NCBI GenBank assembly: GCA_000724175.1
Contig: JPGV01000015.1
Location: 132,523 to 196,522, forward strand
Length of the DNA stretch: 64,000 nt
Direction of reading: 5' to 3'
Source: [Candidatus Thermochlorobacteriaceae] bacterium GBChlB
Lineage (GTDB): Bacteria; Bacteroidota; Chlorobiia; Chlorobiales; Thermochlorobacteraceae
A model generated the notes under the pieces. The model worked only from the letters and a program-made list of their open reading frames with translations. It made no database searches and was not told where the DNA came from. The position numbers were made by a program, and so were the translations under genes. Every line of letters starts with the position of its first letter. Position 1 is the first letter of the stretch. Below are positions 41,608 through 55,570 of this stretch, one piece after another.

Positions 41608-42236
41608 CTAAGCCAAAAAAGTTGCACAAGTTTAGGGGATTTTTTAAAAAAAAGTCGCTCTTTTTAAGAACTTAGTTTTTAAAGATGTGCGGAAAATCAC
41701 AAGAGCGCCGTTTTTAATGGTTTCGTAACAATCCAGCGGTTAGTTTTGCAACCGTTTTTTAGGACATAGTTCTTTTACGATTTTCACGATGACTACTACT
41801 GATGTTCTTTTATCCTAACATTTACATTTAGTCTCGATTGTCTAAACCAAAAATTTTTCAGCAACAATTTTTTCTAACACAAACATGACACGCGTATCGA
41901 ACCACTATGACTAAAGCAGCCTTCCGCGCGATTTCGCACTTGGCGAGACGCGCATGGGGCTATGCTTCGACCACACACGCGCTCAGCGCGAAAGCATCAC
42001 ACATACCGCACGGTGTAGTTCAACCCAAAAAGGGAAACGGGATTACACATTCACATCAGAGTCCGACAACGCGACCGCTTCACGTCGGAGTTTCCTTGGC
42101 ATCAAAGGCGTTACAACGATACAGGCAATTTTTTTCAAGTCCGCTTGAAGCGTTGCACCGCGTCGTTGCGCCCGAGCCGAAACCCGTTTCTAACACAATC
42201 AAATTCACAAACAATCTTTTTGGAGGTAACCACACC
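41608..42236 (+). other. 629-base region without recognised gene before nuclease gene
   Basis: The first 270 bases are AT-rich with many T runs and hold no gene. From 41907 the composition becomes GC-richer, and a frame stays open in phase with the nuclease for 110 codons, but its product is low-quality (Arg/His/Ser-rich, no signal peptide) and the nuclease has its own ribosome site and lipoprotein signal at 42237. TCCGAC at 42062 and GTCGGA at 42084 could form a hairpin. It may be a long structured leader or a remnant of another gene. Confidence 0.4.
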
Positions 42237-44009
42237 ATGTCTAAATACATCACTCTTTTCGCATCTCTCGTTTTAGTCGTCGCGCTTTCCGCCTGCTCCG
42301 ACAACAACCTTGTCAATTCTGACCCAATGGCAGACAAGGCAAGAAACAAAAGAGCAACGGCGGTTTCCGACGATATGTCGCTCCAAGCAACGACCACCGA
42401 AGGCTTCGAGAGCGGCAGCAAAACCAGCTACGCGGCTGGCACAGTAACGCTCGGCACGGGTTCTTACACGCTGACCGAAGCGCTTATCGGCAACTCGACC
42501 AGCGACCGTAAGAACGGTGCGCAATCAGCCCGCATCCGTGAAACGGGTCGCGTAACTATGAACTTCAACCGCACTACTGGCGCAGGCACAGTTACGGTTC
42601 GCCACGCGGTTTTCGGCACGGACGGCGCGAGCAGCTTCGAACTCTGGATGTCGACCAACAGCGGTGCGTCTTGGACGCGCGTCGGCTCGGCGGTTACGGT
42701 GTCGTCGACCTCGCTCCAAACGGCGACATTTACGGTCAATGTCGGCGGCACAGTGCGCTTCGAGATTCGCAAGGTCTCGGGCGGCGCGAACCGCATCAAC
42801 ATTGATGACATTGTTATCACTGACGGCACAGGTAGCACAACGCCTCCACCTCCGACAGGTGGCAACGAAATCGAGCCGAACAACACCACCGCGCAAGCGC
42901 AAGCGGTTACTGCGCCCGCAACCATCGTGGGCTTCATCAGCAGCACCAGTGATGTCGACTACTTCCGCGTGAATGCAACCGCAGGTCAAACGATAACGCT
43001 CAACATGACGGTTCCGTCGTCGGTTGATTACGACCTCTATCTCTTGAACTCGTCTGGTGCATTGCTTCGTGGCTCTGAAAACGGCACAGGCGCAAGCGAG
43101 TCGATTAGCTTCGTGGCGACCTACACGGGAACGCATTTCGTTCAAGTGATGCGTTACAGCGGCAGCAGCACAACGGCGAGCTACTCGCTCAGCATCAATG
43201 TCTCTGGCAGCACCGGCGGCGGCACAACGCCTCCTCCGCCGACATCGTCCAACGAACACATGGTGATGGGGAATCCTGACGGCGCAATCGCCAGCACAAC
43301 CAGCCCGGCGAAATACCTGATGGAAAAACCGCAGTATGCCTTGTCCTACAACCGCGATAAGGGCATTCCGAACTGGGTGAGTTGGAGAGTCGATGCCTCG
43401 TGGATTGGCAGCGCACCGCGGCAGGACGACTTCCGTGCTGACAACACGCTTCCAGCAGGGTGGTATCAAGTCGGCGGCAGCAGCTATTCGGGCAGCGGCT
43501 TCGATAGAGGACATAACTGCCCTTCGGCAGACCGCACCAACTCGGTGGCAAACAACTCGGCAACATTCTTGATGACCAACATGATTCCGCAGGCGCCCGA
43601 TAACAACCAAGGTCCGTGGGCAAGCCTTGAAAACTACACGCGTACGTTGGTCAATCAAGGCAACGAGTGCTATGTCATCATGGGTCAATACGGCGTCGGC
43701 GGCACAGGGTCAAACGGCTCACGCACTAGCATTGACGGCGGCAGAGTTACCGTTCCTGCAAGAACTTGGAAAGTAATCGTGGTGCTTCCCGTCGGTTCAG
43801 GCGACGATGCAGCCCGCGTAACAACGGCAACCCGCGTCATTGCGGTCGATATGCCAAATACGCAAGGCATTCGCAGCCAAAGCTGGGGCAACTATCGCAC
43901 GACGGTCGATGCGATTGAACAAGCCGCAGGCGTGGATATTATGTCCAGAGTCTCGGCAAGCGTTCAAGCCGTCATTGAGTCGCGCGTCGATAACGGTCCG
44001 GTTCAATAA
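42237..44009 (+). CDS. Secreted DNA/RNA non-specific endonuclease with accessory domains, lipoprotein
   Basis: 590 residues from the ATG at 42237 (GGAGGT ten bases upstream). Signal with lipobox 'VALSAC'. Domains: a beta-sandwich of about 150 residues ('EGFESGSKTSY' to 'INIDDIVITDG'), a Pro-rich linker, a pre-peptidase C-terminal domain ('NEIEPNNTTAQAQAV', 'DVDYFRVNATAGQTITL'), a second Pro-rich linker, then a NucA/EndA-like betabetaalpha-metal nuclease with 'GSGFDRGHNCPSADRTN' (catalytic His) and 'TNMIPQAPDNNQGPWASLE' (metal-binding Asn). It would degrade extracellular nucleic acids at the surface for nutrition or biofilm turnover. A shorter paralogue follows. Confidence 0.9.
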   Translation: MSKYITLFASLVLVVALSACSDNNLVNSDPMADKARNKRATAVSDDMSLQATTTEGFESGSKTSYAAGTVTLGTGSYTLTEALIGNSTSDRKNGAQSARIRETGRVTMNFNRTTGAGTVTVRHAVFGTDGASSFELWMSTNSGASWTRVGSAVTVSSTSLQTATFTVNVGGTVRFEIRKVSGGANRINIDDIVITDGTGSTTPPPPTGGNEIEPNNTTAQAQAVTAPATIVGFISSTSDVDYFRVNATAGQTITLNMTVPSSVDYDLYLLNSSGALLRGSENGTGASESISFVATYTGTHFVQVMRYSGSSTTASYSLSINVSGSTGGGTTPPPPTSSNEHMVMGNPDGAIASTTSPAKYLMEKPQYALSYNRDKGIPNWVSWRVDASWIGSAPRQDDFRADNTLPAGWYQVGGSSYSGSGFDRGHNCPSADRTNSVANNSATFLMTNMIPQAPDNNQGPWASLENYTRTLVNQGNECYVIMGQYGVGGTGSNGSRTSIDGGRVTVPARTWKVIVVLPVGSGDDAARVTTATRVIAVDMPNTQGIRSQSWGNYRTTVDAIEQAAGVDIMSRVSASVQAVIESRVDNGPVQ

Positions 44010-44157: not shown

Positions 44158-45072
44158 ATGCGTAACACTCTTCTTAAAATCTCCGCCCTCGTCGTAATGG
44201 CGGTATATTTCGCCGCGTGTTCTCAGCTTCCGAATGCGCCTGAAACTGAAACGCCAAGCAAACAAAAATCCATTGAAGTTCCAGTTGGCGCGCCCGATGC
44301 AGAACTTTTCTCGACAAGCGTTCATCTGACGATGGGCAATCCAAGCGGCGCGGTTACAAGCACGAGCAGCCCGTCGAATTACTTGATGGTGAAGTCTCAA
44401 TATGCGTTGGCGTATCAACGCGATTTAGGCATTCCGCGTTGGGTAAGCTGGCATCTTGACCGCTCATGGCTCGGCAGTGCGCCGCGTCAAGACGACTTCC
44501 GCGCCGACGGCACGCTTCCCTCGGGCTGGTATCGTGTCAGCAACACCAGCTACACTGGCAGCGGCTTCGACCGCGGGCATATGTGTCCGTCTGCCGACCG
44601 CACCAACTCGATTACGAACAATTCGGCGACGTTCCTGATGACGAATATGATTCCGCAAGCGCCCGACAACAACCAAGGTCCGTGGGCGAGACTTGAAGAC
44701 TACTGCCGCACATTGGTGAATCAAGGCAATGAACTCTACATCATTTGCGGTGCTTACGGTTCAGGCGGCACAGGGTCGGCAGGATATAAGACATCTATTG
44801 ACGGCGGCAGAGTGCGCGTTCCGTCAAGAACATGGAAAGTGATTGTGGTGTTGCCGAGCGGCACCAACGATGTGGCTCGCGTTACAACATCGACGCGTGT
44901 GATTGCGGTCAACATGCCGAACTCGCAGGGCATTCGCAGCGCAAATTGGGGCAGCTACCGCACCAGCGTTGATGCTATTGAGTCAGCGACGGGTCTGAAC
45001 CTGCTGTCGGCTGTGCCCTCGAGCATTCAAACAACAATTGAAGCCCGTGTAGACAACGGTCCGACTCAGTAA
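44158..45072 (+). CDS. Secreted DNA/RNA non-specific endonuclease lipoprotein, short paralogue
   Basis: 304 residues preceded by GAAGGAG. Lipobox 'YFAAC' near residue 22. After a short linker comes a nuclease domain very similar to the one at 42237-44009: 'GSGFDRGHMCPSADRTN', 'FLMTNMIPQAPDNNQGPWARLE', 'TSIDGGRVRVPSRTWKVIVV'. The beta-sandwich and PPC domain of the longer paralogue are missing. The tandem arrangement points to local duplication followed by domain gain or loss. Both keep the active site, so both should be active. Confidence 0.92.
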   Translation: MRNTLLKISALVVMAVYFAACSQLPNAPETETPSKQKSIEVPVGAPDAELFSTSVHLTMGNPSGAVTSTSSPSNYLMVKSQYALAYQRDLGIPRWVSWHLDRSWLGSAPRQDDFRADGTLPSGWYRVSNTSYTGSGFDRGHMCPSADRTNSITNNSATFLMTNMIPQAPDNNQGPWARLEDYCRTLVNQGNELYIICGAYGSGGTGSAGYKTSIDGGRVRVPSRTWKVIVVLPSGTNDVARVTTSTRVIAVNMPNSQGIRSANWGSYRTSVDAIESATGLNLLSAVPSSIQTTIEARVDNGPTQ

Positions 45073-47087: not shown

Positions 47088-50000
47088 TTATACCAAATCG
47101 ACGGCGGGGAGTTCAAAAATAAATGTGCTGCCTTTGCCTTTGCCGGCGGACTCTGCCCAGACTTTGCCGCCGTGCAATTCAGCAATGCGCTTGACGATGG
47201 AAAGACCTAACCCGACGGACGCTTCGCCGCCTGTGGGTTGCGCCGACAGTTTTTGAAATTTTCGGAACATCAAAATTTTGTCTTCTTCACTCAGTCCCGG
47301 TCCTTCGTCTTTGATTTCAACGCGCCCGATGCCATTCGCTTGTCCGACCGACACCCAAATCGTTTTGCCATAAGGCGAAAATTTTACGGCGTTGGATAAT
47401 AGCTGCTTAACCAACTCGACCAAGCGGTCTTCATCGCCGAAAACAATGCAGTTGCTTTTAACATCGAGTTCGATTTTCTGCATTTTTTTCGAAGCGAGCT
47501 CCTGATGTTTCAGCACGGCAAGCTCGACCAAGCCTTTGAGTGAAATATCTCGTTTGTTGAGCGTCAGGCTTTCAACGCCGAGAATATTGGCATCGAGCAG
47601 TTTATCGACCGTGACGCTCATTCGGTTCGACAGGTCGCTGATGATGTTGAGGTATTGAACTTGAAGGTGAAGTGGGATTTCGCCGTTAAGCAACATGCCG
47701 GTAAAATCGTGGATGCTGGTAAGCGGCGTTTTAAGTTCGTTCGCGGCGACGCTCAAGAGTTCGGTCTTAAACTCGCTGGCTTCTTGGGCAATTTCGCGCT
47801 GCTGTTCCGTAAGTTCCTTTTCGCGTTGAAGGTCTTTTGTGCGGTCTTCCAGTGCCTTGGTACGCTCCTCAACGAGCCGCTCGAGTTCCTTTTGTTTCGA
47901 GGCAAGCTGCCGCACGCGCCACGAATACGCGCCGAAACTTGTCAGCGTTATCGTAACGCCGCACATCAAAAAGAACCATGTTGTCTCGTAGAAATGCGGC
48001 TCGACTCGGAATGTCAGCGACGCGCCTTGGTCGTTCCAAATGCCGTCGTTGTTGCAGGCAATCACGCGAAAAACATACTGCTTGGGCGCAAGGTTCGTGT
48101 ATGAATACTCGCGTTTGCTGCCGACGTCAATCCACTCTTTATCGAAGCCCTCGAGCCTGACTTTGAAGCGCGTTCTTTCAGGCGCTGTGTAGGAGAGCGC
48201 AGCGTAGCGAAATTCAAACCGCTGCACATCGGGCGGAAGCGAAAGCGACGCGGTTTGGGAGAGAACAAACGTGTTCTTTTCGGTTCTAAGCTGCTCGATT
48301 TTAATGGGCGGAATCAGCGCGTTGAAATTCAACCGCGACGGGTCAATGACGACGACGCCTTTATTCGTCGGAATCCACAGCCGCTTGTCGTGGGATTGAC
48401 ACGGAAACGCGGCGCCGACAACTTCTGCGGTCTTCATGCCGTCGGATTTGTTGAACAGGCGCGCCGTAATTTGAACGGGCTTGCCATTGGCAATGTCGTT
48501 CAATTGGCGCTGGTCGAGCGATGACACGCCGTTGTTGGCGCCTATCCAAAACCGTTCCTTGTCGTCGGGCAGAATAAAAAACACGGCGTCGCTTGGCATG
48601 CCGTTGGCGGTCGTGTAAGTTGTAAAGGTGTTATTTTTCAGACGATTCAATCCCGAATTGGTGCCAAACCAAAGTGTGGAGTCGTTGCCCTCGTGCAAAC
48701 AAAAAACCACATCAGACGCCAAGCCGTCTTTGGACGTAAAAACGCTCAGGCTGTCCTTGTGCATCTTAATCAGTCCTGTGCCGTCCATACCGAACCAAAG
48801 CGAGCCGTCGCGCGTCTCGGTGATGAACATCGTCGAGGCTTTCAGGCGTTTGTCAGAATGCGCTTGAAGCGTATCGTTGATAAGGCAATAGACGCCGCCC
48901 GCGCCGCCAACCCAAAGCATACCGGTTTTATCCTCGTGCAGGCAGCGGAGCCGGTCGCCGACGGCGGAGTTGGTCGGGTAACGAATAAACCGCCCATTTA
49001 CGAATTTGCACAGCCCCGAATACGTGGCGAACCAAAGCGACCCGTCTCGTCTGCGCAGTGCGGCGCGAATCATTTTATCGGGCAACCCGTCTTTGATGTT
49101 GTAGACCGTTGTCTTGCCGTTGCGAAGATGGGTCAACCCGTTGGACGTGCCAATCCAAAACGAGCCATCTCGGTCTTCATAAATCATGTAAACAATGTCG
49201 TCGGAAAGCCCTTCTTTGACGGTGTAGGTGAGGAACTTTCCGTTCTTAAATCGATTCAAGCCGCCGCGATAAGTGCCGAGCCATAGGTTGCCTTCGCGGT
49301 CGACGAGCAGAGACTGGGCTTGGTCATCGGTCAAGCCGTCGGCTTTCGAGAAAAAACTGAACTCTGGTTTGTCTGAGTTGCCGTTATGAACGCGGTAAAG
49401 CCCGCTGCCGAACGTGCCGACCCACAGGTTGTCATCATCGTCGGTGATGAGGCTGCGAATGCGTTTGCCGGCGAGCGGGCTGTCGTTAGACAGATGAGCA
49501 AAGACGCCGTTGCGATAAGAATAAACGCCATTGTCGCCTGTGCCAAACCAAATGGTGCCTTTGTTGTCTTCATAAATTGTCCATGTGGGCAAAAGCGGGA
49601 CGCCGTCGCTGGGCGTGTAAAATTGAAACTGCGTGTTTTGATAACTACATAACCCAACAGGTGTGCCGAGCCAGAGAACGCCGCGCGAGTCGAGCCAGAG
49701 CGCGTTAATGGTGTTGTGCAGACCAGTGCTGTCGGGAATCGCAAGAGTCGAAATAGTGCCGTTTGAAAATCGAGCCAAGCCGTTGCGCGTGCCAATCCAA
49801 ACGCCGCCTTGTTTATCGGGACAAAGGTCTAAAATCACGTTGTTGGGCAAGCCATCGTTGGTCGTGTAGGTTTTAAAGATGCCGTCTTTGTAGGCAGAGA
49901 CGCCGCCGCCGTTGCTGCCTATCCACAGCGTTGAATCTTCGGTTTCGCAGAGCGCCCAGATGCCGTTGTTTTTTAGCGCAGGCGTGTTGGTTTTATTGAA

Positions 50001-50246
50001 CACCGTAAATGAGATGCCGTCAAATCTCACCAGCCCATCAAATGTGCCAATCCAAATATATCCGTCCGAGGTTTGCAGGAGTTCAAGAATGGAGTTCGAG
50101 GGCAAGCCTTGTTCGCGTTGCCATGTGTCGTGAGCAAGTTGTGTGATGGATTTCTTGGGGTCGATGGCGTAAAGCGTATTCGGGAAAAATGGTTGGACGC
50201 CCAAAGTGCAAGTGCAAACTGCGAACACAAGGCGCATAAGGAACAT
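47088..50246 (-). CDS. Two-component regulator-propeller sensor, histidine kinase family with Asn at the phospho-acceptor site
   Basis: 1052 residues from the ATG at 50246 (50237 also possible). Signal peptide, then about a dozen reg_prop repeats forming two seven-bladed propellers ('SDGYIWIGTFDGLVRFDG' type), a Y_Y_Y domain (about 695-760, 'VRLEGFDKEWIDVGSKREY'), one membrane span ('FFLMCGVTITLTSFGAYSW'), a coiled coil and the kinase. The H-box reads 'LLSVAANELKTPLTSI': Asn836 (codon 47739-47741) replaces the His normally phosphorylated. The N box ('LLSNAVKFSP'), G1 ('DEGPGL') and G2 ('GVGLGLSIVK'-like 'VGLGLSIVK') are intact, so ATP binding should remain. No receiver or output domain follows. 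Confidence 0.9.
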   Translation of the reverse strand: MFLMRLVFAVCTCTLGVQPFFPNTLYAIDPKKSITQLAHDTWQREQGLPSNSILELLQTSDGYIWIGTFDGLVRFDGISFTVFNKTNTPALKNNGIWALCETEDSTLWIGSNGGGVSAYKDGIFKTYTTNDGLPNNVILDLCPDKQGGVWIGTRNGLARFSNGTISTLAIPDSTGLHNTINALWLDSRGVLWLGTPVGLCSYQNTQFQFYTPSDGVPLLPTWTIYEDNKGTIWFGTGDNGVYSYRNGVFAHLSNDSPLAGKRIRSLITDDDDNLWVGTFGSGLYRVHNGNSDKPEFSFFSKADGLTDDQAQSLLVDREGNLWLGTYRGGLNRFKNGKFLTYTVKEGLSDDIVYMIYEDRDGSFWIGTSNGLTHLRNGKTTVYNIKDGLPDKMIRAALRRRDGSLWFATYSGLCKFVNGRFIRYPTNSAVGDRLRCLHEDKTGMLWVGGAGGVYCLINDTLQAHSDKRLKASTMFITETRDGSLWFGMDGTGLIKMHKDSLSVFTSKDGLASDVVFCLHEGNDSTLWFGTNSGLNRLKNNTFTTYTTANGMPSDAVFFILPDDKERFWIGANNGVSSLDQRQLNDIANGKPVQITARLFNKSDGMKTAEVVGAAFPCQSHDKRLWIPTNKGVVVIDPSRLNFNALIPPIKIEQLRTEKNTFVLSQTASLSLPPDVQRFEFRYAALSYTAPERTRFKVRLEGFDKEWIDVGSKREYSYTNLAPKQYVFRVIACNNDGIWNDQGASLTFRVEPHFYETTWFFLMCGVTITLTSFGAYSWRVRQLASKQKELERLVEERTKALEDRTKDLQREKELTEQQREIAQEASEFKTELLSVAANELKTPLTSIHDFTGMLLNGEIPLHLQVQYLNIISDLSNRMSVTVDKLLDANILGVESLTLNKRDISLKGLVELAVLKHQELASKKMQKIELDVKSNCIVFGDEDRLVELVKQLLSNAVKFSPYGKTIWVSVGQANGIGRVEIKDEGPGLSEEDKILMFRKFQKLSAQPTGGEASVGLGLSIVKRIAELHGGKVWAESAGKGKGSTFIFELPAVDLV

Positions 50247-50378
50247 TTGGCGTGCGCTGGCCACAAACGTCAAGATTAAGTTTTCAAAATTAACTGCGAG
50301 AATAGACTGCCGCCAGCAATTTCGCGCGGCGATAAACGGCTGCAAATATAGGGCTTTTCGAGATATACCTTGTCAATT

Positions 50379-52178
50379 TTAGAAACTCGTTGTCAAGACA
50401 ACGCCTGATTTTGCAGGCAACTCAAGCGTGTGAACGCCGCCCAATGGCTTGAACGTTTGGCCTGAAAGTAAATCTTTGAACTCGCCGTCGCGTCGAAGCT
50501 CAACCGTTTGTTTTTCCGTCGAGTTGTTGAGCAGAACGACAGCCGTTTCATGCTCGAACTTGCGTTCATACCCAATGACGTCTTTTTGGTCGTCGCTCAG
50601 CAAAAATGTCAGCGTGCCTTTTCGAAGCGCAGCGCTGTGTTTGCGCAGTAAAATGAGCCGCTTGTGATACTCGAACAGGTCTTGGTCGAACTTGACGGCT
50701 TGACGAGCGACAGTGCCGCTTGATGTAAAGAGCGTTTCATCGTCATAAACAAGGTCGTTCCAAAGCATGGGCTTGCGGTCGTCGGGGTCGTCGGCGCCCC
50801 ACATGCCTGCTTCTGTTCCGTAGTAAAGCATCGGCGAGCCGATATACGTCATTTGAAAGAGCAGCATCAATTTTTGAATTTGCCGCTCTGCGGCATTCGG
50901 CTTGCGCGTGTTGTAGGTTGGGTTGTGGCGCGGCGAGGCGTCGCGGTCGTAGTCACGGTCGGGATTGACAATCATCGACGGCAAGCGGTCGGTGTCGTGG
51001 CTTTCAAACAAATTCATTAGCCCGTAATTCGCTGCGTCGGGATACGATGCCAAGTGTTCCGATAGGCGTTTTCGAAATTCCGTCGCCGAAATTTTTTTTG
51101 TCTTGTTGATGAAATACGACACGCTCGCAATCGCAACGGGATAGTTCATGACCGCATCGAACTCGTCACCTTGAAGCCACTCTTTGGCGTTCTTCCAAAT
51201 TTCGCCGCTAAGGTAGGCATTTGGATTGATGGCTTTGACAAGGCTGCGCCAGTCTTTCCAAAATGCGTGCGGCACTTCGTCGGCAACATCGAGCCGCCAG
51301 CCGTCGACCCCGTTGTCGGGATTTCCATCGGGCATCATCCAGCGTTTGGTGATGGCAAAAATGTGGTCTCGCACATCTTTAACAAGCCCGAACGTGGAAT
51401 CGCGCGAAAATTCCGGAAGTGACTTTGCGCCCCACCAGCCGTTATAATCAAACGTCGTTCCCGTCGCCGAATCGTTCCAACTTATTACCTGATACCAATG
51501 CTTGTAAGGAGAGTTCTGTTGGCGTTTCAATACATCTTGAAACGCCCAAAACCCGCGTCCCGTATGGTTAAAAACGCCATCAATGATGATGCGGATACCT
51601 TGCTTGTGCGCTTCGCGAATGAGTTTCAAAAATAAACGGTCCGCATTCGTCCAAACCCACGTGTCGGGATTGGCGGGATTTTCTTTGGCAATGAGCTTTA
51701 AATCTTCGGCGGGATTCGGGCCAAAATTAACATCGATGTGATGATACATCGTCGCGTCGTATTTGTGCAGCGATTTGGCTTCAAAGACTGGGTTAAAATA
51801 AATCACCTCGACGCCAAGGTCTTTCAGGTAGCCAAGTTTATCCAAAACGCCTTGCAGGTCGCCGCCGTATCGCCGGTTGAAGACATTATCGTAAAATTTC
51901 GATGAATTTTTTTTCTCGTCGGGTGTCAGCGCATACCAATCGCTTGTCCAACGGTGCGCTTTGCCAATAGGCTGAGATTTATCCGAAGAGGGGTCATTGT
52001 TGCGGTCGCCATTGCGAAAGCGTTCGGGAAAAATTTGATAGAACACAGCGCCCTTCGCCCACTCTGGCGCGAAAGCAATTGAACACGATGACGGTGCGTG
52101 CATATTGAGCAATCTCGGTTGTAAAAGAGCAATCAAGCCTACTGCGCTAACCCACACGGTGAACTTCAACTGCTTCAT
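50379..52178 (-). CDS. Secreted GH13 alpha-amylase-family enzyme (neopullulanase/cyclomaltodextrinase-like)
   Basis: 599 residues from the ATG at 52178; residues 5-20 are a signal peptide and a Cys at 32 could be lipidated. The four conserved GH13 regions are 'DGVFNHTG', 'GWRLDVADE' (nucleophile Asp297), 'LSGEIW' (acid Glu326) and 'ESHDTDRL' (Asp395). 'YQIFPERFRNGDRNNDP' near the start is typical of neopullulanase-type enzymes. A C-terminal beta domain follows (about 510-599). It would hydrolyse alpha-1,4 glucans outside the cytoplasm. It is single, divergent in function from the neighbouring kinase. Confidence 0.94.
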   Translation of the reverse strand: MKQLKFTVWVSAVGLIALLQPRLLNMHAPSSCSIAFAPEWAKGAVFYQIFPERFRNGDRNNDPSSDKSQPIGKAHRWTSDWYALTPDEKKNSSKFYDNVFNRRYGGDLQGVLDKLGYLKDLGVEVIYFNPVFEAKSLHKYDATMYHHIDVNFGPNPAEDLKLIAKENPANPDTWVWTNADRLFLKLIREAHKQGIRIIIDGVFNHTGRGFWAFQDVLKRQQNSPYKHWYQVISWNDSATGTTFDYNGWWGAKSLPEFSRDSTFGLVKDVRDHIFAITKRWMMPDGNPDNGVDGWRLDVADEVPHAFWKDWRSLVKAINPNAYLSGEIWKNAKEWLQGDEFDAVMNYPVAIASVSYFINKTKKISATEFRKRLSEHLASYPDAANYGLMNLFESHDTDRLPSMIVNPDRDYDRDASPRHNPTYNTRKPNAAERQIQKLMLLFQMTYIGSPMLYYGTEAGMWGADDPDDRKPMLWNDLVYDDETLFTSSGTVARQAVKFDQDLFEYHKRLILLRKHSAALRKGTLTFLLSDDQKDVIGYERKFEHETAVVLLNNSTEKQTVELRRDGEFKDLLSGQTFKPLGGVHTLELPAKSGVVLTTSF

Positions 52179-52334
52179 ACGTTTGTTTTGATACAAAGAT
52201 ACGATGTGATTGCTGAAAGCCGCTCAACGCAGCGTTGCTTTTTCCAAACCTATCGGGAGATTGCAGTTTTCGAGTTTCGCCCGCCATAGTTTGAGACGCC
52301 AAGTCCCATGTGTGAATCGGGCGTGTGGTTGCGC

Positions 52335-54487: not shown

Positions 54488-55570
54488 TTAGCGCAACGTG
54501 TCTGGCGCAGCGGCACCGAAGGCATAACACTGTTTCAACTTGTCGGCAATCATGTCTCTTTCCGCCAAGATTCGTTTGCCGATAAAAACAAGCACGCTGC
54601 TCGAGCGCGTCTCGCGGAACGGTTCATGGGCAAGTGTGTCGTAATCAAACGTGTATCTGCCCGAAGCAAAATTGAACACGGTCGGGTTTGGCATCTCGAC
54701 GAAATTGATAATGCCTTTGGCGCGATAATATCGACGCGGCAAATCGGCGAGGAATAGCTCAAACTTGCGCTGCGAAACCACATCAGAAATCTCAATGGCA
54801 AATGTTTGGATTTCATCGACGTCCAAGTGATAACTTTCTGCCGCCGTATGGTCGTGGTGATGATGATGTCCGTCGTGATGCGTCTGGCGTTGCGAAAGCC
54901 GCCGCTCAATGTCGTGGTCATATTTTTGTTTGAGGTCGGCGATGTGCTGATGGAGCGTCTCGCGCAGGTCTCGGTGCGACGAAGCTAAGAAAATCTCGGG
55001 CGGAAGGTTTCCATGAACCGTTTTGAAAATCGGCGCGCGCTCGTTCATCTGGCGTATGGCTTTTTCGGCAGCCTGAATATCCGCGTCGCTGCAGACATCG
55101 ATTTTATTGAGAACCACAAGGTCGCAGATGGTCAGTTGAATTTCGGCGACAAGATTGTCTGCCAAGTGTTCGCAGAGGCGTTCCGCATCGGCGACGGTCA
55201 TAATGGTGTCGAGTATCAAGCGTTGGTCGTTGGCAAGCATCATAAAAATCGAAATCGGGTTGGCGATGCCAGTGGTTTCGATGAGCAGAACGTCGGGCGT
55301 CAATGTTTCCAGAATGTCAGAGACGGCGTTGGAGAAGTCGCCTGAAATCGTGCAGCACATACAGCCAGCCGTCAGTTCGCTAATTTGCACATTGGCAGTT
55401 TTGAGTAAAATCGAGTCGACGGAAACCTCGCCAATCTCGTTTTCAATCAGGGCGACTTTCTTGCCCGAAAGGGCGGTGTCGAGCAGGCGCTTGATAAGCG
55501 TTGTTTTTCCGCTTCCCAAAAAGCCAGTGATGATGACAGTGGGAATGCGCATAGACGACGAGAATGGCAT
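54488..55570 (-). CDS. CobW/P47K-family GTPase (zinc or other metal chaperone type)
   Basis: 360 residues from 55570 (an ATG at 55552 is an alternative start). Walker A is 'GFLGSGKTTLIKRLL', the metal-binding motif is 'TAGCMCCTI' (CxCC), and a guanine motif 'VLNKIDV' is present. A His-rich loop ('HHDGHHHHHDHT', about 240) and a C-terminal CobW_C domain follow. Such GTPases deliver metals, often zinc, to client enzymes and many are Zur-regulated; here no good operator was found upstream. It is 3 kb from the MerC/receptor cluster. Confidence 0.92.
   Translation of the reverse strand: MPFSSSMRIPTVIITGFLGSGKTTLIKRLLDTALSGKKVALIENEIGEVSVDSILLKTANVQISELTAGCMCCTISGDFSNAVSDILETLTPDVLLIETTGIANPISIFMMLANDQRLILDTIMTVADAERLCEHLADNLVAEIQLTICDLVVLNKIDVCSDADIQAAEKAIRQMNERAPIFKTVHGNLPPEIFLASSHRDLRETLHQHIADLKQKYDHDIERRLSQRQTHHDGHHHHHDHTAAESYHLDVDEIQTFAIEISDVVSQRKFELFLADLPRRYYRAKGIINFVEMPNPTVFNFASGRYTFDYDTLAHEPFRETRSSSVLVFIGKRILAERDMIADKLKQCYAFGAAAPDTLR

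Follow-up and report, generated by a model that had tools for sequence, protein, structure and literature searches.

An asparagine-type pseudo-histidine kinase candidate with a periplasmic propeller sensor, conserved between two genera of Thermochlorobacteraceae

Pseudo-histidine kinases are already known as a kind and are rare; in a published survey, HisKA domains without the phospho-acceptor histidine amounted to 0.9% (722 of 76,471) (PMC12632262), and few natural examples have been characterised. DivL of Caulobacter crescentus is a weak ATP binder that docks DivK~P, has neither kinase nor phosphatase activity, and shows altered fitness when its tyrosine is changed to histidine (PMC4211667). 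In the chloroplast sensor kinase (CSK), Tyr, Gln or Glu stands in place of the histidine, the CA domain has changed in parallel, and ATP is still bound (PMC5054060). Here we describe a gene in a 64,000-nucleotide stretch (the window) of contig JPGV01000015.1 from Candidatus Thermochlorobacteriaceae bacterium GBChlB. We consider, with a probability of about 0.62, that its product belongs with DivL and CSK as a conserved pseudo-histidine kinase, which would sense a periplasmic signal and give a contact-based output without autophosphorylation.

Phospho-acceptor position and ATP-binding site

The domain layout of the protein is given in Table 1. Matches to the Pfam models for Reg_prop repeats, Y_Y_Y, HisKA (PF00512) and HATPase_c (PF02518) were all above the curated cut-offs, and the last two make up the architecture of a pseudo-histidine kinase in the sense of Collins and Childers. 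HATPase_c is the last domain of the protein, and the fused receiver and DNA-binding domain of a hybrid two-component system (HTCS) are absent. Residues are numbered from the TTG start codon; the alternative start is an ATG at 50246 (residue 34), which would give a protein of 1052 residues.

Table 1. Features of the gene and its product (positions in the window; residues numbered from TTG)
Feature	Position	Strand	Residues	Basis
Pseudo-histidine kinase gene (putative)	47088..50345	(-)	1085 aa from TTG	
Periplasmic two-component regulator propeller (Reg_prop repeats)	48216..50156	(-)	64-710	Pfam
Y_Y_Y domain	48003..48194	(-)	718-781	Pfam
Probable transmembrane segment WFFLMCGVTITLTSFGAYSW	47910..47978	(-)	~790-812	by eye from sequence
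Coiled-coil signalling linker	47781..47909	(-)		orthologue and linker-spacing comparison
DHp (HisKA-like) domain	47571..47780	(-)	856-925	Pfam and orthologue alignment
Asn in place of phospho-acceptor His, codon AAC	47739..47741	(-)	869 (836 from ATG)	sequence; HK853 and orthologue alignments
Thr at +4, HisKA phosphatase-motif position, retained in window clade	47727..47729	(-)	873	H-box alignment
CA (HATPase_c) domain	47091..47570	(-)	926-1085	Pfam and motif alignment
Gln in place of first Asn of N-box NxxxNA	47403..47405	(-)	981	motif alignment
Val in place of usual Thr/Ser preceding G2-box glycines	47214..47216	(-)	1044	motif alignment

The first-pass annotation had claimed that the phospho-acceptor histidine is replaced by asparagine at residue 836, and this was borne out: AAC is read there, and residue 836 counted from the ATG is residue 869 counted from the TTG. 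The H-box reads SVAANELKTPL, with Asn869 lying within SVAANELKTPLTSIHDF and inside the Pfam HisKA match (residues 860-918), and a phmmer alignment placed Asn869 opposite the phospho-accepting His of HK853 (ISHELRTPL; 2c2a, 3dge). No nearby histidine aligns to the H-box as a substitute. The orthologues carry Met or Ser in place of His878 (TSIHDF), and His893 is conserved, but sits in the turn joining the two DHp helices.

The same annotation had described the N, G1 and G2 boxes as intact, which holds for Asn985 of the N-box, the G1 DEGxG motif and the G2 glycines, all retained along with the F-box, but not for the first Asn of the N-box or the Thr/Ser preceding the G2 glycines, which are replaced by Gln981 and Val1044. 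The first N-box Asn was present in all 134 His-bearing relatives sampled, and the column is listed as near-invariant Asn in a separate, overlapping 30-row alignment. Among the seven His-less proteins described below, the same position is Gln in five and His in one, with Asn only in the protein that has Gly in its H-box; the N-box change thus accompanies loss of the histidine in 6/7 His-less proteins versus 0/134 His kinases. Val at the G2-box position is found in the propeller-type His-less proteins. A residue required for kinase activity is therefore absent from both the H-box (His to Asn) and the N-box (Asn to Gln). The second N-box Asn typically holds the metal (PMC10017428). With the glycine positions of the G1, F and G2 boxes retained, nucleotide binding likely remains.

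An AlphaFold2 model of the linker-DHp-CA part, made from a 30-row alignment, had a mean pLDDT of 90 and shows both DHp helices as well as a formed CA fold. Its top matches among solved structures include HK853 and DivL (4q20), the latter with a TM score of 0.63-0.67 by query.

Conservation and phylogeny of the His-less modules

A search of 40 related genomes together with the own genome found the window-type gene in five genomes only: the own genome, three genomes of the sister genus g2 with close orthologues (G001, 57% identity; G006, 55%, from an assembly with 13% contamination; G004, 60%), and G003, whose homologue has the same architecture but is more distant (40%). The question of whether orthologues also carry Asn was answered in the affirmative, the H-box being AANEL[KR]TPL in all three g2 proteins; that of the G003 homologue is AAGDLRDPL, with Gly. 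Asn is encoded by AAC in the window and in G004 but by AAT in G001 and G006, and synonymous divergence between the window gene and its orthologues is near or at saturation, which argues that the residue was maintained despite the codon change. Because 134 of the 143 modules sampled have His while the sister-genus orthologues all share Asn, the occurrence exceeds chance.

Identity to the G001 protein is 84% in the DHp domain, the best-conserved part, 73% in CA, 65% in Y_Y_Y and 49% in the propeller. As a control for the general conservation of kinase cores, active paralogues were compared across the same genomes; DHp-CA identity between genomes was 77, 71, 82 and 87% for pseudokinase pairs, versus 61-74% for five His-kinase pairs. 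Judged from these identities, the pseudokinase core is at least as constrained as those of working kinases. The gene occurs in several species with DHp-CA as its best-conserved part, as expected of a gene held by selection, and the earlier view of a full-length sensor kinase that is not decaying is supported by the shared Asn and the constraint on DHp and CA across species. The G004 orthologue (L128:7946-11210) is broken across three reading frames with its H-box unchanged, and the breaks are either real gene damage or MAG/assembly errors.

The spacing from the end of Y_Y_Y to the H-box is 83 residues in the g2 proteins, 90 in the window protein and 97 in the G003 homologue, exact single-heptad steps, and the linker phase matches that of active paralogues of the order (spacings 83, 104 and 118). 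The whole-heptad differences, together with the shared phase, suggest that signal transmission through the coiled coil is retained.

The 143 homologous DHp-CA modules are a sample, short of a full census. The nine rows other than the 134 with His comprise seven His-less proteins of this family of genomes, one distant Bacteroides protein and one gap row. One of the seven is a second His-less protein of the own genome, with the H-box ALNELKNPL and a different, membrane-type N-terminus; it is truncated where contig C12 ends (L133/L131), and 15 related genomes gave no match to it at E 1e-50. It lies in a gene run (L131:8394-12685) in which a PAS kinase that has the usual His (AHEVRNPL) is followed by an NtrC-type regulator and, a few bases further on, by this Asn-type pseudokinase. 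Another, in G003 (L138:984-2156), is an Asn-type His-less DHp-CA core (AANDLSDPL) fused to a receiver. The usual Asp, Thr and Lys positions of this receiver are present as read from the sequence, so that it is apparently intact, and the protein would be a response regulator with a pseudokinase core as its output. The Bacteroides protein (L122:10433-11155, from a MAG) is a distant propeller-type kinase with Asn in its H-box (NISNEFRTPL) and a normal N-box. Pattern searching also gave a match in G038, a pattern match only, and one on G001:C17 that lies outside any kinase reading frame and was set aside as chance.

In a tree of 37 modules, the first six His-less modules formed one supported group (97/91), which persisted when the H-box columns were masked (94/89). 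When the seventh was included in a tree of 62 modules, again with the H-box columns masked, the five propeller-type proteins grouped together with a support of 93/83, slightly below the star threshold, and all seven His-less modules fell within a supported 15-row set that also contained eight His kinases. Constraining all seven to a single origin gave a p-AU of 0.14, and such an origin is neither shown nor rejected by these trees. There was thus at least one old loss of the histidine, in the propeller type, with the losses in the other two proteins possibly separate.

Proposed contact-based signalling and its alternatives

A mechanism without phosphotransfer could operate as follows. The sequence shows a periplasmic propeller/Y_Y_Y sensor connected by what is probably a single membrane pass, followed by a heptad-phased coil, to DHp and CA. 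As the phospho-acceptor His is missing along with an invariant Asn of the N-box, autophosphorylation would be impossible. Ligand binding to the propeller would put the DHp/CA dimer into another conformation, and the output would be a contact, either with a docked response regulator of another kinase or with a paired catalytic kinase, as in DivL; bound nucleotide could act as a conformational ligand. This reading is supported by the presence of Asn in four window-type proteins across two genera (the window protein and the three of g2), with Gly in the fifth genome, by the accompanying N-box change, and by the G003 receiver-core fusion and the run of His kinase, NtrC-type regulator and pseudokinase in the own genome. 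Weighing against it are the lack of conserved neighbour genes, the frame-broken G004 copy and the restriction of the window-type gene to five genomes. Among the options that the first-pass annotation had offered, a non-phosphorylating regulator is the best fit; a phosphatase is possible in the window clade but fits the whole lineage poorly.

A dedicated response-regulator phosphatase, in which DHp strips the phosphate from a partner and Thr873, perhaps with the Asn869 amide, positions the attacking water, is in our judgement rather unlikely. The HisKA phosphatase motif (E/D at +1, T/N at +4) is present in the window clade as E870 and T873, both positions being retained in 4/4 window-type proteins, and DHp is the best-conserved domain. 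HisKA phosphatase activity can do without the conserved His, although this residue contributes to it (PMC12632262), and DrBphP provides a precedent for a kinase-inactive, light-controlled phosphatase (PMC8292422). However, the H260A substitution in HK853 lowers phosphatase activity (PMC5727384), and the survey cited above argues against phosphatase activity as the general role of pseudo-kinases (PMC12632262). The +1 acid is retained in 7/7 His-less proteins, but the +4 residue, Thr in the window clade and Asn in the C12 protein, is Asp in both G003 proteins, a residue found at +4 in 0/134 His kinases. From these alignments, a phosphatase role would be open for the window clade, with its +4 Thr, and unlikely for the wider group. 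In CheX and CheZ, amide residues position the attacking water. By analogy, the change from His to Asn might have made the kinase a signal-controlled dedicated phosphatase, the Asn amide and the +4 Thr placing the water and the N-box change from Asn to Gln having removed the ATP-side kinase reaction; we hold this proposal to be quite improbable.

It is similarly doubtful that the protein serves as a heterodimer subunit, pairing with a catalytic paralogue that it either inhibits or phosphorylates on the partner His in trans through its own CA domain. Catalytic H-boxes of the same type number at least 16 in the genome, some of them in proteins that share the propeller sensor and linker phase of the window protein, and the latter retains the metal-binding N-box Asn and the glycine boxes; however, the Gln at the N-box Asn and the G2-box Val make trans-phosphorylation less likely, and the one own-genome propeller paralogue measured has a linker of 118 as opposed to 90 in the window protein.

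Two further explanations have very little in their favour: decay or sequencing error in a kinase whose histidine was lost recently, for which the frame-broken G004 copy could be cited, is opposed by the identical Asn in three other species and by a core that is under the strongest constraint in the protein, is at least equal to active paralogues and exceeds most of their pairs in identity, and autophosphorylation on another residue, although most CA motifs are retained, is opposed by the absence of any His aligned to the H-box, the variability of His878 in orthologues and the substitution of the invariant N-box Asn.

Genomic surroundings and comparison with known systems

An alpha-amylase-family gene (50379-52196, (-)) lies 33 bases upstream of the pseudokinase gene on the same strand, and the two are possibly co-transcribed; their adjacency is not conserved in the sister genus. 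Downstream on the same strand is a gene for a 275-residue protein without a Pfam match that is phosphoesterase-like by reading. Gene order around the pseudokinase differs between the window and g2. Gene neighbourhood failed to point to a partner, with no neighbours conserved between the genera and no receiver domain within the window. The window protein is an orphan, and any partner must be encoded elsewhere because no response regulator is nearby; 67 receiver domains above cut-off are encoded in the own genome. Elsewhere in the window, two adjacent genes (41907-44006 and 44158-45069, (+)) encode DNA/RNA non-specific endonucleases (PF01223). Each has a lipoprotein-like signal sequence, and the first, which also contains a PPC domain, probably starts at an internal ATG (MSKYITL...). 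The gene at 54491-55570 (-) encodes a CobW-family GTPase that carries a histidine-rich loop and is probably a metal chaperone.

Neither an Asn-type HisKA pseudokinase nor the present lineage was found described in the literature searched, most subscription journals being outside its scope. Judged by the comparisons made here, what appears new is a conserved, propeller-bearing lineage, the N-box change that goes with its H-box loss, and the existence of His-less relatives whose input domains are of other kinds. The lineage offers a case for comparison from a family that has been little studied, and the input side of its membrane sensor is intact. H-box loss and the N-box change co-occur in relatives with three different input domains, which makes it testable whether lost autophosphorylation leaves a response-regulator-binding module or a phosphatase. 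The case also carries a warning, since Pfam and NCBIfam rate such proteins as ordinary histidine kinases.

The solved protein nearest to the DHp-CA core in both sequence and structure is HK853 of Thermotoga maritima (2c2a, 3dge), an enzyme active as both kinase and phosphatase; its His260 and its canonical N-box Asn are both lacking in the window protein. The sensor architecture is common to Reg_prop/Y_Y_Y histidine kinases, among them those of the Bacteroides HTCS type, and, as far as examined, the best homologues from the public genome collection belong here too; however, the sampled Reg_prop/Y_Y_Y kinases have the H-box His, except for the distant Bacteroides protein noted above, and the window protein has no fused receiver or AraC domain. 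DrBphP likewise is a HisKA protein acting without kinase activity, but it keeps its His and is a light sensor (PMC8292422). CSK resembles the window protein in having a replaced His with parallel CA-domain changes; in contrast, it is a plant and algal redox sensor without a membrane propeller, and its replacement residues are different. DivL shares the HisKA-type DHp-CA fold and a conserved replacement of the phospho-acceptor, and is functional. The window protein is not a DivL orthologue, however: DivL has Tyr550 in the H-box and PAS sensors, whereas the window protein has Asn and a periplasmic propeller.
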